35,915 nt of DNA, from contig VGTG01000049.1 in NCBI GenBank assembly GCA_016874795.1, positions 1 through 35,915 on the forward strand. The letters are read 5' to 3'. Below the pieces are notes generated by a model. That model worked only from the letters and a program-made list of their open reading frames with translations, was not told the origin of the DNA and ran no database searches. Within the stretch, counting starts at the first letter, position 1, and every line of letters starts with the position of its first letter. Of this stretch, positions 1-35,915 are shown in pieces. This DNA is from Deltaproteobacteria bacterium (GTDB taxonomy: Bacteria > Desulfobacterota > Binatia > UBA12015). The position numbers were made by a program, and so were the translations under genes.

Positions 1-25
1 GGATCTGGTGAGAAATGCAGGCTAG
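1..25. repeat. Right end of a truncated copy of the 178-bp inverted-repeat element
   Basis: Bases 2-21 are identical to the right terminal repeat of the complete element at 2735-2754 and are followed by the same tetranucleotide CTAG (22-25). The rest of this copy lies outside the window. It ends only 14 bases before the start codon of the TonB-dependent receptor, so any promoter of that gene must lie in or beyond this element. Confidence 0.85.
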
Positions 26-39
26 CGAAGGCGCGCCTC

Positions 40-2576
40 GTGGCCGCACACCGTATGCTCGCGCCGCGCCTACTCCTCTTGTTCCTGTGCCTACTCCCCG
101 GGGTCGCCGCGGACGCCCATGCACAAGCCGGCGGTGGCACCGCGGGCGGCAGCGGGCCAGCGTCCGCAGACGATTCGAACGAATACCGGATCGAGGCGCC
201 GGCAGCGGAAGAAGCCGCGGCGGAAGTCGGCGAGAGCAGCGGCTTCGCCACCGAGATGGACGCGGGCGAAGCGCAGGCCGCCGATGCCGCCGGAGGGCAA
301 TCTGCCGGGCTCTCTCCGCGCACGCGCACCGAGGTCGAGCAGATCGTGGTCAGCGCGCGAAAGCGCTCCGAGCTGCTCGAGGAAACGCCGGTCTCCGTCA
401 CGGCGCTCGGCGCCGAGACCCTGATCGCGGCGGGCGTCACGCGGATCGACCAGATCCAGAACCTCGTCCCGAACCTGACCATCCTCGGCGATCCGAGCGG
501 CCAGCTCGGTTCGTTCATCATTCGCGGCGTCACGAACTTCCCGTTCGTCTTCTTCGACCAAGGCGTCGGCGTCTACGTCGACGGCGTGTTCTTCCCGCGC
601 AACGCAGGCAACCTTCTCGACGTGGTCGACGTCGCGCAAATCGAGGTCCTGCGCGGCCCGCAGGGTACGCTTTTCGGCAAGAACACCGTCGGCGGAGCGG
701 TCAACATCACCACCGTGCAGCCGCACGACGAGCTGGAGGGCTACGCTTTCATGCGCGCGGGCAGCTTCGGCACCTTCGACACGCGGGCAACCCTGAACGT
801 TCCGGTCGCCGCCGGCCATTTCGAGGACCGCCTGTTCACCCGCTTCTCCTTCGGCTCGTTTCAGGACGAGGGCTACACGGTCAATACGCTGCGCGACGAG
901 ACGGCAACCGACCGGAGCTCGCTCAGCTTCATCGGTTCCGTCAGGTATCTCCCGGCGGACGACGTGAGCGTGCTGGTCTATGGGTCGTGGGAGCGCAGCC
1001 ATACCCGCGGTCCGGGTGGGCAGTGTGTGTTCATTCAGGACGTCGCGACGAGCGTGTTCCTCCCTCCGGGCTACCGCGAAGCCTGCGAAGCCTCCGAGCC
1101 GTTCTCCTTCGCGGCGGATACCCATTCCGTCTCCGACCTCGAGAGCTACGGCACCTGGGGCAACGTCGAATGGGACGTGGGCGACCTGGGCCCGCTCGAG
1201 AATCTCGTCGTCAAGGCGACGGCGGCCTGGCGCGAGCAGATCCCGAGCGTCCGATCCGACTGGGACATGACGGGATTTCCTGTCTTCAAGCAAGCGCAGA
1301 TCGGCGGGGCGAGAACGACGGCGAGCCCGGCTTTCAGCAGCAGGCCCAGCAAGAGCTGCAGGTGAACGGAAACGCGCCCGACGGCAGCCTCACCTACGTG
1401 GGCGGCGTCTTCGGCTTCCAGGAGGAGGTGAACCAGAACACCTCGCTCGTCGTCTTCCCGGGCACACCGGTCGAGTTCCTCGGCGTGAGCCGGGGCCTCG
1501 TCGAGACCGACAATTGGGACTGGGCGGTCTATGGACAGGCGACCGCGGATTTGGCCGATTGGCTGAGCTTGACGGCCGGCCTCCGCTACACCGAGGAGAA
1601 GAAAGGGCTCGACCGGACTCTCCTCGAGCCCCTGAACACGCAAGCGCCCGTCGCCGTGTCGTTCCAGGGAAGCGAGACGTTCAGCGCCTGGACGCCGATG
1701 GCGAGCCTCGCGGCGATCGCACCGGAGGATTGGCTCGACGGCTGGCTCGCGCCGCTGTCGCTCGATCACCTGATGGGCTACTTCACGTTCGCGGAGGGGT
1801 TCCGCGGCGGCGGCTTCAACGGCAACGCGCGAAGCCTCGAAGCGGCGCAGCCGTTCGAGCCGGAGTTCGTCGACTCCTTCGAGGTCGGTTTCAAGACGAT
1901 CGCGCTCGACCGCCAGATCAGCATGGACCTGTCGCTCTTCCTCGCCGACCGCTCGAACATGCAGGTACCTCAGGTCGTGACGATGGAATGTGGCCCGGAC
2001 GATCCGCCGGACTGCCTTCCGTCTGCGGACGTCCTGATCACGAACGCCGGCGAGGCGAGCACGCGCGGCTTCGAGTGGGAAGCGGAAGCGCGCCCGATCG
2101 ACGGGCTGCAGATCACCGCTTCGGTCGGCTACGCCGACTCACGCTACGACGACTTCCCCAACGCCGAGAACGCGATCACCGGAGAGCCGCAGAACCGCTC
2201 CGGCGAGCGCATCCCGTTCTCGCCTCTCTGGCAGACACACGTCGCCGTCCAATATTCGTTCGAAGTCTCGTTCCCCGGCCCGGCCTGGCTGCAGGGATGG
2301 CTCACACCACGAGTCGACTGGTCCTTCGAGAGCACGGTCGAAAACTTTGCCCCCGAGCTCACTCAGCTCACCCAGCCGAGCTACGACCTCGTCGACATCC
2401 GTCTCTCGTACGACTTCGCCGACGACCGGACACAGATCGCCTTCTGGGGAAGCAACCTGACGAACGAAGAATACTTCAAGGACTCCCTCGCCCTGCAGAC
2501 GCCGGTCCTCGGGACCGCGATCCGGTACTACGAAGCGCCGCGCGCCTTCGGCGTCGAGCTGAGCTATCGGTTCTAG
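40..2576 (+). pseudogene. TonB-dependent outer-membrane receptor, interrupted by a one-base frameshift
   Basis: This would be a ligand-gated outer-membrane transporter of about 845 residues for a siderophore, vitamin or carbohydrate; the substrate cannot be told. The GTG at 40 is preceded by GAAGG (27-31) at good spacing; ATG 55 is the alternative. A signal peptide (LLLLFLCLLPG, then an AHAQA cleavage site) is followed by an acidic/alanine-rich linker. The plug domain follows, with IVVSARKR, ETPVSVTAL, a VYVDGVFF segment and LRGPQGTLFGKNTVGGAVNI. The first frame continues to about base 1309 and meaningful protein then resumes in the next frame (GENDGEPGFQQQ onward) to the stop at 2574-2576. 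The shift is explained by one missing G in the run GGGG at 1306-1309. The barrel half ends in SYRF, the terminal aromatic residue expected for outer-membrane barrels. The stop codon lies within the CTAG that borders the downstream element. Both halves are otherwise undamaged, so this is a recent lesion or a sequencing error. Confidence 0.88.
1306..1309 (+). other. Frameshift site in the receptor gene (GGGG run)
   Basis: Adding one G to this four-G run joins the plug-containing frame (QIGG) to the barrel frame (GENDGEPG) with no stop and no loss of sequence. A four-base run is short for phase variation, and no slippery heptamer or downstream stem is obvious, so mutation or base-call error is the simplest reading. 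Confidence 0.75.
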
Positions 2577-2758
2577 CCTGCATTTCTCACCAGATCACGT
2601 CGCGAGGCGGTCGAGAGTGCCGAAGATTCGCGAGCCTCGGACCGGAGGGCGACGCAGGCGTACTTGAACAGTACGTCGAGGAGCCCGGAGGGAGAAGCTC
2701 GCGAAGATTCGGTGCTATCGGCCGCCGCAGTAGGGATCTGGTGAGAAATGCAGGCTAG
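2573..2758. mobile_element. MITE-like 178-bp inverted-repeat element with CTAG on both sides
   Basis: The left end CCTGCATTTCTCACCAGATC (2577-2596) is the exact reverse complement of 2735-2754, a perfect 20-bp terminal inverted repeat. Inner arms are also partly complementary: 2624-2643, around AAGATTCGCGAGC, pairs with 2698-2718. At the centre is a short palindrome (GTAC, TTGAACA, GTAC). CTAG lies directly outside both ends (2573-2576 and 2755-2758) and also outside the truncated copy at 1-25. That fits a four-base YTAR-type target duplication as known for IS5-group insertion sequences. There is no transposase inside, so mobility would need an enzyme supplied elsewhere. The remaining non-coding bases to 2903 show no gene or clear terminator. 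Confidence 0.8.
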
Positions 2759-2903: not shown

Positions 2904-3683
2904 TCAATCTCCCATTTGGGACAGGTGTTCGATCGTGAAGAGGTTGTCGGCGAGGCCGCGGTTGTAGTCGATCTCCGCCAGCTCGACGAGGGTCCGGTAG
3001 CCGTCGGTCGGGCTCCGCATCTCGACCTCGAGGATCGTCGGGATGCCGCCGACGATCTCGGTGCGCGTGACCAGCATCGTCTTCAGCAGCCCGTCCGCGT
3101 AGAAGTCGACGCGTGTCGGAAGCCGGGTCTCGCGGTCGATCGACGTGCGCAGGCGCCGGTACGCGAACTCGCCCTCGGGAAGGGTCGTCTCGACGATCCA
3201 GCAGCGGCTCTCGCCGTACTCGCTCTCTCCCTCGAGGCGGTGCGTGCCCTCGAAGTCGAGGAAGAAGACCGCGACGAGGTCCTCGTACGTGAACATGCTG
3301 CCCTGGAAGTTCTCGCGCCGGATCGAGGGCGGCACCCGTCGCACGCGGCGCTGGCCCGGGAAGTAGACCCACAGCGAGTCCGGGCTGCCCTCGTTCTGCC
3401 AGGCGAGAAAGCCGGTTCCCTCGAGCTCCTGCGGCGAATCGAAGATCCACAGAACCTTCCGCGCCTCCGGGTCGTGCTTCTCGTATCCGCGCAAAATGCG
3501 AACGCGCTCGTCGCCCGAGGGCGCGCGTACGCGCATCGTGACCCGCATGCTCTTGTCGCGCACCCCCGAGAGCACCGCGCGGGCCTTCTCCAGCACGGCT
3601 TCGCCGGTGGGCGCCGTTTCGCCGCCCGCACCGGAAGAGACGAGCTGGAGCGCGAGAGCGACGGCACCGGCGACGAGGCGCAC
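2904..3683 (-). CDS. LolA-like periplasmic lipoprotein-sorting family protein
   Basis: The product is 259 residues with an N-terminal signal peptide (MRLVAGAVALALQLVSSG). The body matches what is known of the LolA-like/outer-membrane lipoprotein-sorting family: repeated amphipathic strands, with DKSMRVTMRV, ARKVLWIFDSPQELEGTGFLAW, WVYFPGQRRVRRV, and a final DNLFTIEHL. Members bind lipid or lipoprotein in a half-barrel in the periplasm and often sit beside RND/MMPL exporters. No exporter is visible here, so its partner is unknown. It is a single gene, converging on the receptor; a perfect palindrome (3745-3765) lies about 60 bp upstream. True LolA activity is not established by family membership. 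Confidence 0.8.
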   Translation of the reverse strand: MRLVAGAVALALQLVSSGAGGETAPTGEAVLEKARAVLSGVRDKSMRVTMRVRAPSGDERVRILRGYEKHDPEARKVLWIFDSPQELEGTGFLAWQNEGSPDSLWVYFPGQRRVRRVPPSIRRENFQGSMFTYEDLVAVFFLDFEGTHRLEGESEYGESRCWIVETTLPEGEFAYRRLRTSIDRETRLPTRVDFYADGLLKTMLVTRTEIVGGIPTILEVEMRSPTDGYRTLVELAEIDYNRGLADNLFTIEHLSQMGD

Positions 3684-35042: not shown

Positions 35043-35915
35043 GTGGCTCCGAAGGATGCGAACAGATCCCGCCGGCGGGCGGTCCGCCGCGGCTTCGCCG
35101 GCGGTGTGGCCGTCGTCGCGGCCTTCGGTGCGGGGCTCGCGTGGCTCGCCGTACCGCCGCTCGGCGGCGCCGCCGAGAGCGAGCCCGCACCGCGCCCGAA
35201 GCCCCTCGAGAGGATCGTCCGCCGGCTCGGCCCCGAGGCGTTCGGCGTGCAGCCTCCGGCCGGCCGCTTCTCGGTCGTGCAGGTGAACGACCAGGCGCGC
35301 GAGGTCGTCGCGAGCCCGGCGCGCATCTCGATCGCGCACGAGCGCGGCGTCCTCTTTCGCGACGGCGTCGCGCGCGTCCCCGTGAAGCTTCCGCCGGAGG
35401 TCGCGTCGTTCCCCGACTCGAGCTTCGAGCTGAGCCTGATCCACGTGCCGTTCGAGATCGAGCTCGACGAGAAGACGCTCGACGGCTTCGAGACGAAGGG
35501 CCGCTTCAAGCGGCGCGAATCGGCCTGGCGCCTCGAGCGCGATCCGAAGGATCCGTCGGCGGCGACGCTCGTCCTCTTGCCGGGCTCGGAGAAGGGGAAG
35601 GGTCAGCTCATCCTGCGCTTGGACGCGCTCGGTCCCGTTCCCAGCTCGCTCACGAGTGAGCCGTTCGAGCTGCCGCGAAACGGCGTACTCGAGCTCGGCT
35701 GGGCGGCGACGCCGCAAGCCGCCGGCGGCGCGGCACCGCTCGCGTTTCGTGCGATGCTCGACTGCGGCGAAGGCGGGGGCGAAGGCGAAGGCGAAGGCGA
35801 AGGCGAGCGCGAGGGCGAAGGCGAAGGCGAAGGCGAAGGCGAAGGCGAGCGCGAGGGCGAAGGCGAAGGCGAGGGCGAGGGCGAAGGCGAAGGCGAAGGC
35901 GAAGGCGAAGGCGAA
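35043..35915 (+). CDS. Secreted protein with Gly-Glu repeat tail, cut by the window end
   Basis: At least 291 residues are visible in one open frame from GTG 35043 to the last base. A basic start (RSRRRAVRR) and hydrophobic VAVVAAFGAGLAWLAVPPL form a signal peptide or anchor. A beta-rich domain follows (RFSVVQVNDQAREVV, FELSLIHVPFEIELD, GQLILRLDALG, GVLELGWAATPQ). A single late Cys (MLDCGEGG) precedes a long Gly-Glu dipeptide repeat. I do not recognise the domain. It starts five bases after the SDR stop, so it may share its transcript, though the ribosome site is weak. Confidence 0.6.
   Translation, partial: MAPKDANRSRRRAVRRGFAGGVAVVAAFGAGLAWLAVPPLGGAAESEPAPRPKPLERIVRRLGPEAFGVQPPAGRFSVVQVNDQAREVVASPARISIAHERGVLFRDGVARVPVKLPPEVASFPDSSFELSLIHVPFEIELDEKTLDGFETKGRFKRRESAWRLERDPKDPSAATLVLLPGSEKGKGQLILRLDALGPVPSSLTSEPFELPRNGVLELGWAATPQAAGGAAPLAFRAMLDCGEGGGEGEGEGEGEREGEGEGEGEGEGEREGEGEGEGEGEGEGEGEGEGE
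35766..35915 (+). repeat. (GGCGAA)n tandem repeat coding for Gly-Glu
   Basis: About 25 hexamer units run to the window end, all in the reading frame of the preceding gene. There are a few synonymous or conservative variants (GAG for GAA, CGC for GGC giving Arg-Glu, one GGG). The Arg-Glu variants recur at intervals of about twelve codons, pointing to larger duplication units. Such repeats change length by slippage and often break assemblies. Confidence 0.95.

Follow-up and report, generated by a model that had tools for sequence, protein, structure and literature searches.

The window, that is, the whole stretch of DNA analyzed, measures 35,915 nt and corresponds to contig C49 (positions 1 to 35915) of a host assembly of 6.27 Mb in 360 contigs. 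A TonB-dependent receptor gene, a hairpin element, and a LolA-like gene follow each other at its left end, with the features listed below.

1 to 25, plus strand: second copy of the element, final 25 bases, cut at the contig end; its own CTAG at 22 to 25
55 to 1365, plus strand: TonB-dependent receptor, first part (Plug domain), frame 1
1362 to 2576, plus strand: TonB-dependent receptor, second part (beta-barrel), other frame, with its stop inside the left CTAG
2573 to 2758, plus strand: complete copy of the hairpin MITE, 186 bp long with its two CTAGs and 178 bp without them
2573 to 2576: left CTAG of the target duplication; TAG at 2574 to 2576 is the stop of the barrel frame
2577 to 2596, plus strand: left terminal repeat, CCTGCATTTCTCACCAGATC; its first 17 nt plus CTAG equal an IS1380-family end
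2735 to 2754, minus strand: right terminal repeat, the exact inverse of the left one
2755 to 2758: right CTAG of the target duplication (compare the flanks of other copies)
2759 to 2903: stretch from the right CTAG to the LolA-like gene, dissimilar to the orthologous place in three congeners; right-hand synteny break at about 2905
2904 to 3683, minus strand: LolA-like gene (PF17131), whose orthologues in the congeners G001 to G003 were used for the synteny test

At the opposite, right end of the window, an array of 6-bp repeats (GGCGAA/GGCGAG) occupies positions 35766 to 35915.

An earlier note, made from the letters of the window, had described a repeat recurring around the receptor as the ends of a 178-bp inverted-repeat element. 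The recurrence is exact: the 24-mer (20 bp plus CTAG) stands at 2 to 25 and at 2735 to 2758, and its reverse complement stands at 2573 to 2596. The length of 178 bp is likewise what we measured between the CTAGs of the complete copy. Since the window begins at a contig end, the copy at 2 to 25 is cut. In the complete copy, the terminal inverted repeats agree at 20 of 20 bp, or 24 of 24 when the CTAG is counted. The 186-bp element has room for at most 62 codons, which is too short for a transposase, and forms a near-complete hairpin of −127.9 kcal/mol (200 shuffles: mean, −67.5; SD, 3.9; z, −15.4). Membership in a known structured-RNA family found no support, as no Rfam score exceeded its threshold: 0 families passed the gathering score in the window, the best match between 2500 and 2830 was only WT1-AS_3 at an E value of 9, and the sole match up to an E value of 1 in six related loci was MIR8622, with 40.5 bits against a cutoff of 197. 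A consensus scan of the element revealed no terminator, no promoter, and no terminator-like T run, and the plasmid sequences searched with the element gave no match.

Copies of the element and their target site

The repeat is by no means confined to this locus, since the genome search that the earlier note had suggested located it at about 122 places. This number derives from 245 genome-wide matches to the 19-bp end (at most 2 mismatches; 0 matches for a reversed control) and from 123 matches to one of the two ends taken together with its neighboring bases, many of the elements being cut by contig edges. A search with the whole element returned at least 40 copies at 100% identity over 186 bp (best 40 of 257 candidates scored), and in a set of 55 complete copies, each with its own flanks, 41 share the same 178-bp sequence, 30 of the 55 having been drawn from the 100%-identity set. 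So many identical copies point to a recent burst of the element, and since the end pattern TAGCCYGCATTTCTCACC occurs in only 7 of 148 genomes of the class (that of the window included) and in 0 of 3 congeners, this burst would be lineage specific as well as recent. The congener G002 holds one partial match to the element, of 84 bp. On the sequence evidence, we firmly conclude that the repeats around the receptor are copies of a protein-less mobile element whose recent spread took it to about 120 places.

The first of the two readings offered in the earlier note, two non-autonomous insertions with a YTAR-type target duplication, is supported by the flanks of many copies and by empty sites at two other insertions, the duplicated sequence here being CTAG. 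The near flank ends in CTAG in all 49 rows listed, a set for which a left CTAG was not required, and the far flank starts with CTAG in 41 of the 42 complete copies of the same set. The larger set of 55 copies was selected for a left CTAG, so that there only the right side tests the duplication; it reads CTAG in 53 copies, CCGG in one, and CTAA in one. Outside the CTAG, the flanking bases display no clear further consensus. To look for empty sites, the flanks of seven copies were joined and compared with 14 genomes of the family, including that of the window; element-free orthologous sites aligned across the junction for two of them (L113 in G001, G002, and G003; L016 in G001 and G003), the L113 empty site reading CTAA in G001. 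For the other five joined sites, the matches listed contained no alignment across the junction; with the joined site of the window's copy as query, the matches in relatives were to receptor genes, through the receptor end, and none of those listed covered the right flank. Flank alignments and empty sites thus display the CTAG duplication that had been predicted, and we encountered neither a repeat restricted to one locus nor an empty-site comparison that lacked the duplication. Given its short length, inverted ends, target duplication, and many near-identical copies, we firmly regard the element as a MITE.

Two observations on hairpins in the host genome are added here. The copy at 1501 to 1686 of L014 has flanks that are mutually inverted (ATCTGCACC ... 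GGTGCAGAT), as if it lay inside another hairpin. Another hairpin element, 158 bp long, unrelated to the first and with ends TGCACCGCCGTCGAGATAGCGTC, is present at L005:1083-1240, L119:1325-1482, L125:1335-1492, and L147:7419-7576; CTAG is found on at least one side of all four copies and on both sides in L125 and L147, and the element adjoins a copy of the 186-bp element in L005, L119, and L125.

Stop codons and the rarity of CTAG

Genes were delimited with a home-made caller. Of 55 insertions, 33 lie exactly on the TAG stop of a gene, 22 are intergenic, and 0 fall inside a called gene; in 4 of the 33, the stops of two convergent genes are involved at once. CTAG itself is rare, with 67 occurrences in 433 kb of the host genome versus a Markov expectation of 321. 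These background sites, taken from 20 stretches chosen without a listed copy of the element and from the rest of the window, comprise 24 stops of called genes, 36 intergenic positions, and 7 coding positions (insertions versus background, Fisher p values of 0.011 and 0.016). The target sequence alone explains most of the bias of the copies toward gene ends. From a density of 0.155 CTAG per kb, we estimate about 970 free CTAGs, so that roughly one CTAG in nine would carry a copy.

Because CTAG reads TAG on both strands, an upstream gene on either side of the target regains its stop once CTAG is duplicated, and we infer that CTAG sites tolerate insertion since the stop is rebuilt. This habit provides a simple and countable account of how about 120 copies can exist without broken genes, the target stop being rebuilt at each insertion. 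The stop bias is weaker outside the host genome, where 31 elements comprise 8 on stops, 16 intergenic, and 7 coding, as judged with a gene model trained on the host genome and with many of the copies decayed; their four-base flanks are equal in 14 of 31 cases (12 CTAG, one TTAG, and one TTAA).

The position of 33 of 55 copies directly after a stop codon, together with the strong and conserved fold, could also mean that the host retains the hairpin for its own use, for instance at mRNA 3' ends, where it would stop decay or transcription. We give this idea very little credence, given that a terminator-like T run is absent, that the element is evenly oriented relative to the gene (12 versus 17; p = 0.46), that no Rfam family was matched, that the distribution is patchy, with the exact end pattern in 7 of 148 class genomes, and that the CTAG target by itself accounts for most of the bias toward gene ends.

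The receptor between two copies

According to the earlier note, the receptor coding region fills the space between the copies and stops inside the CTAG. The stop, TAG at 2574 to 2576, is indeed inside the CTAG, but the receptor is broken into two frames. The nearest receptor homologue found, in G002 (71 to 72%), is a single open frame of 890 codons, and since this homologue is intact, the frame change at 1362 to 1365 would reflect an assembly error or a pseudogene. Receptors like that of the window are numerous, with 13 matches in the host genome, 41 in G001, 30 in G002, and 26 in G003.

On the other side of the complete copy, the orthologues of the LolA-like gene in G001 to G003 all (3/3) have their 3' end 3 to 15 bp from a convergent enoyl-CoA hydratase gene, the best host match of which (68% identity) is cut at the edge of contig C43. 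The sequence resembles the congeners only as far as the end of the LolA-like gene, a point about 146 bp beyond the right CTAG; compared with the hydratase side, the intervening stretch scores no better than shuffled sequence. By all indications, the area to the right of the copy is rearranged or was misjoined in the assembly, and the boundary does not lie at the copy.

The second reading of the earlier note, a receptor moving as a cassette, is not supported. Such a composite cassette, in which two copies would have moved the receptor as one block (compare the IS1380 members ISPme1 and ISEcp1), would fit with the receptor occupying the space between the copies, with the rearrangement of the place relative to three congeners, and with the mobilization of adjacent DNA by IS1380 members, described in PMC9330008. 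Against it, the right-hand break with the congeners falls not at the CTAG but about 146 bp beyond the copy (the left side runs off the contig), and the spacing is one expected by chance: the 100 left ends listed, together with the cut copy of the window, include four neighboring pairs at most 2.8 kb apart, versus 6.6 expected for 123 random places. We therefore deem a cassette most improbable, and the right side gives it no support. Since close pairs are expected by chance and the break is outside the copy, the bracket needs no special explanation, and the presence of the receptor between two independent insertions looks like a coincidence.

A transposase probably acting in trans

To find a partner, GTDB contigs were scanned for TAGCCTGCATTTCTCACC followed by a non-A base, which gave 105 stretches, 80 loci of which were examined. 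In Lichenifustis (L217), such an end belongs to a transposase gene recognized by the IS1380 model at an E value of 3e-112, and both L217 and L080 were assigned to the IS1380 family by NF033539 and PF13701. Of the 15 genomes to which these ends led, 13 contain PF13701, as do 18 of 58 relatives. The IS1380-type elements of a class-mate (G057) and of G157, G159, and G161 have CTAG or CTAA at both sides, and one IS1380-type end with CTAG was found in a family-mate (G010). The Bryobacterales MAG RHO3_bin_12 (G149) contains two complete ISs of 1.72 kb, L287 and L299, with ends CCYGCATTTCTCACCAG and CCCGGATATCTCACCAG and with duplications CTAA and CTAG; hairpin elements are present in the same MAG (in L177, L181, L212, and L229). 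The window element and L299 have 21 of 21 nt in common at one end, CTAG included, and 9 nt at the other, and their interiors share only words of 8 to 10 nt, with no visible similarity.

In the host genome, the PF13701 search detected no intact IS1380 transposase, only a fragment with a stop, and since the assembly is fragmented, the absence of a resident autonomous partner carries little weight. The same 19-bp end with another interior was found neither in the host genome nor in the genome collection, with a pattern that covers most interiors but misses those having C as the second base after the end, and with a collection scan that may leave out the host. The IS with the same 20-bp ends that the earlier note had called for thus has a counterpart elsewhere, in an IS1380-family end sharing 21 nt, but none was found in the host genome. 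Although the host assembly has only an IS1380 relic, an IS1380 element, resident or passing, probably was the mover, and the partner family is likely IS1380.

The lack of an intact IS1380 in the host and the sharing of 21 nt with one L299 end and only 9 with the other count against this assignment. The first point would also suit a mover of another YTAR type, such as an IS5- or IS701-type transposase, with only the ends resembling IS1380; IS5 also duplicates YTAR, according to PMC10359306, and the second, unrelated 158-bp hairpin of the host genome is also at CTAG. In the face of the 21 of 21 nt common with an IS1380-family end and of the resemblance of these ends to those of IS1380 elements flanked by CTAG or CTAA in G149, G157, G159, and G161, plus one end in G010, we regard such a mover as highly unlikely.

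We consider it very probable, judging from these sequence comparisons, that the element is a non-autonomous hairpin MITE that an IS1380-family DDE transposase moves in trans into CTAG. This enzyme, presumably supplied by a resident or passing IS1380 element, would read the outer ~17 bp (CCTGCATTTCTCACCAG), cut the element out, and join it to CTAG, which would be duplicated in what we take to be cut-and-paste chemistry. Insertion after a gene would rebuild the stop, and CTAG, being rare and located mostly at or between gene ends, would offer tolerant sites. The receptor would be the DNA between two such independent insertions. The lack, among the matches listed, of an alignable empty site for the window's own copy and the weaker stop bias outside the host genome count against this reading.

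Related hairpins in other phyla

Elements of 165 to 200 bp with both ends were recovered at 19 of the 80 loci, from 13 named MAGs: Gammaproteobacteria (five, Thiogranum and Thiohalobacter among them), Bryobacterales (two), Thermoanaerobaculia, another Acidobacteria MAG, Myxococcota, Fermentibacteria, Verrucomicrobiales (198 bp), and one unnamed bacterium. More elements are present in the class-mates G030, G031, G043, G051, and G105. Most measure 182 to 188 nt and have a similar fold. Since the elements of other phyla were collected by both ends (at most 3 mismatches) and by a length of 165 to 200 bp, the selection itself partly fixes the outer helix and the length, but not helices 2, 4, and 5.

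The alignment A1 comprises 24 of 34 elements, with a mean identity of 61%. The 10 left out (L067, L072, L074, L076, L176, L177:7477, L181:188, L212:1286, L218:1120, and L229) were omitted for odd length, damage, or near-duplication, L067 without special reason; the Verrucomicrobiales element of 198 bp was omitted. Pairing holds in 91.3% of the cells, against 32 to 44% with slid partners and 74% in shuffles, and covariation reaches 0.490, against 0.07 to 0.11 (slid) and 0.19 (shuffled), for a structure that was itself derived from A1. The observed values were reached by 0 of 500 shuffles, a control that does not correct for relatedness. Changes on both sides affect 33 of 52 pairs, including 14 of 14 in helix 2, 6 of 8 in helix 5, and 4 of 5 in helix 4. 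All 24 aligned elements agree in unpaired columns such as the GCGA close to the base, and the internal loops are fixed, with GCGAG facing CGCAG near the base and GCAGGC facing GTCGAG near the tip. At shorter range, 16 copies and fragments in G030 display 17 pair-keeping, 11 pair-breaking, and 0 double changes, the first two being single changes, with 36% pair keeping expected at random and with shared subfamily changes counted several times.

Long imperfect palindromes are known to be corrected by the copying of one arm on the other in replication or repair, and matching changes in the arms could arise in this way and not from selection on the fold. The lack of any double compensating change in G030 is consistent with such correction, which by itself would not be expected to keep mismatched loops such as the invariant GCGA columns; we consider it a rather unlikely source of the matching changes, yet one to be kept in mind. 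A similar length, similar ends, and a similar fold in several phyla, together with the covariation of inner helices, suggest instead a structure-constrained MITE family, and as length and fold are kept across phyla while the letters change, the inner hairpin is probably needed for proliferation. In its fullest form, this proposal is tentative, and we would place it a little short of even: a MITE family of about 184 bp, present in Acidobacteriota, Pseudomonadota, Myxococcota, Fermentibacteria, and the window's class, would combine IS1380-type ends with one fold; the folded strand, and not the ends alone, would be recognized by the transposition machinery or by a host factor; and the CTAG duplication would make and refill a harmless niche of its own, used also by the unrelated 158-bp hairpin.

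The usual view of bacterial MITEs is that they derive from ISs by deletion and have free interiors. In this element, the interior preserves length and fold from phylum to phylum, its letters covarying, and shows no similarity to the IS sharing its ends; if the fold is needed for movement, this would constitute a testable extra rule in DDE transposition.

Two IMG/VR contigs from one metagenome, L422:1-4768 and L421:1-6841, have a diverged element at the contig end (at both ends in L422). Portal and major head proteins are encoded on L422, hence phage-like DNA between copies.

Comparison with known systems

We read the element as a new MITE of the IS1380 type, with stop codons as an unusual niche and with a fold conserved in several phyla. 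The literature on IS1380 in connection with MITEs, CTAG/YTAR, palindromes, and stop codons, within a search that had ISfinder and most subscription journals outside its scope, contained no description of the family, and the terms "IS1380" and "stop codon" are absent from the main text of the 2024 review of prokaryotic MITEs (PMC10969869). As described in that review, bacterial MITEs are, like this element, short and non-coding, with terminal inverted repeats, target duplication, many copies, and a hairpin transcript; they are typically AT rich with AT-rich intergenic targets, whereas the window element is GC rich and targets CTAG, and it differs from the MITEs covered there by keeping one fold across phyla with covariation. 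REP and REPIN sequences (compare PMC3116915 and PMC2817692) are also short mobile palindromes found in many copies between genes, but the present element differs by its 186 bp, its CTAG duplication, and its DDE-type ends.

Members of the IS1380 family (NF033539 and PF13701; L287, L299, L286, and L288) share with the element ends of the type CCYGSATTTCTCACC and a 4-bp duplication, CTAG or CTAA; the element differs in having no transposase and an interior without visible similarity. PMC10813416 uses IS1380 as an outgroup to piggyBac, which likewise duplicates a fixed TA-centered tetranucleotide, TTAA, but is eukaryotic and autonomous. A parallel to piggyBac is seen here in the hairpin element L189, which has TTAA on both sides.
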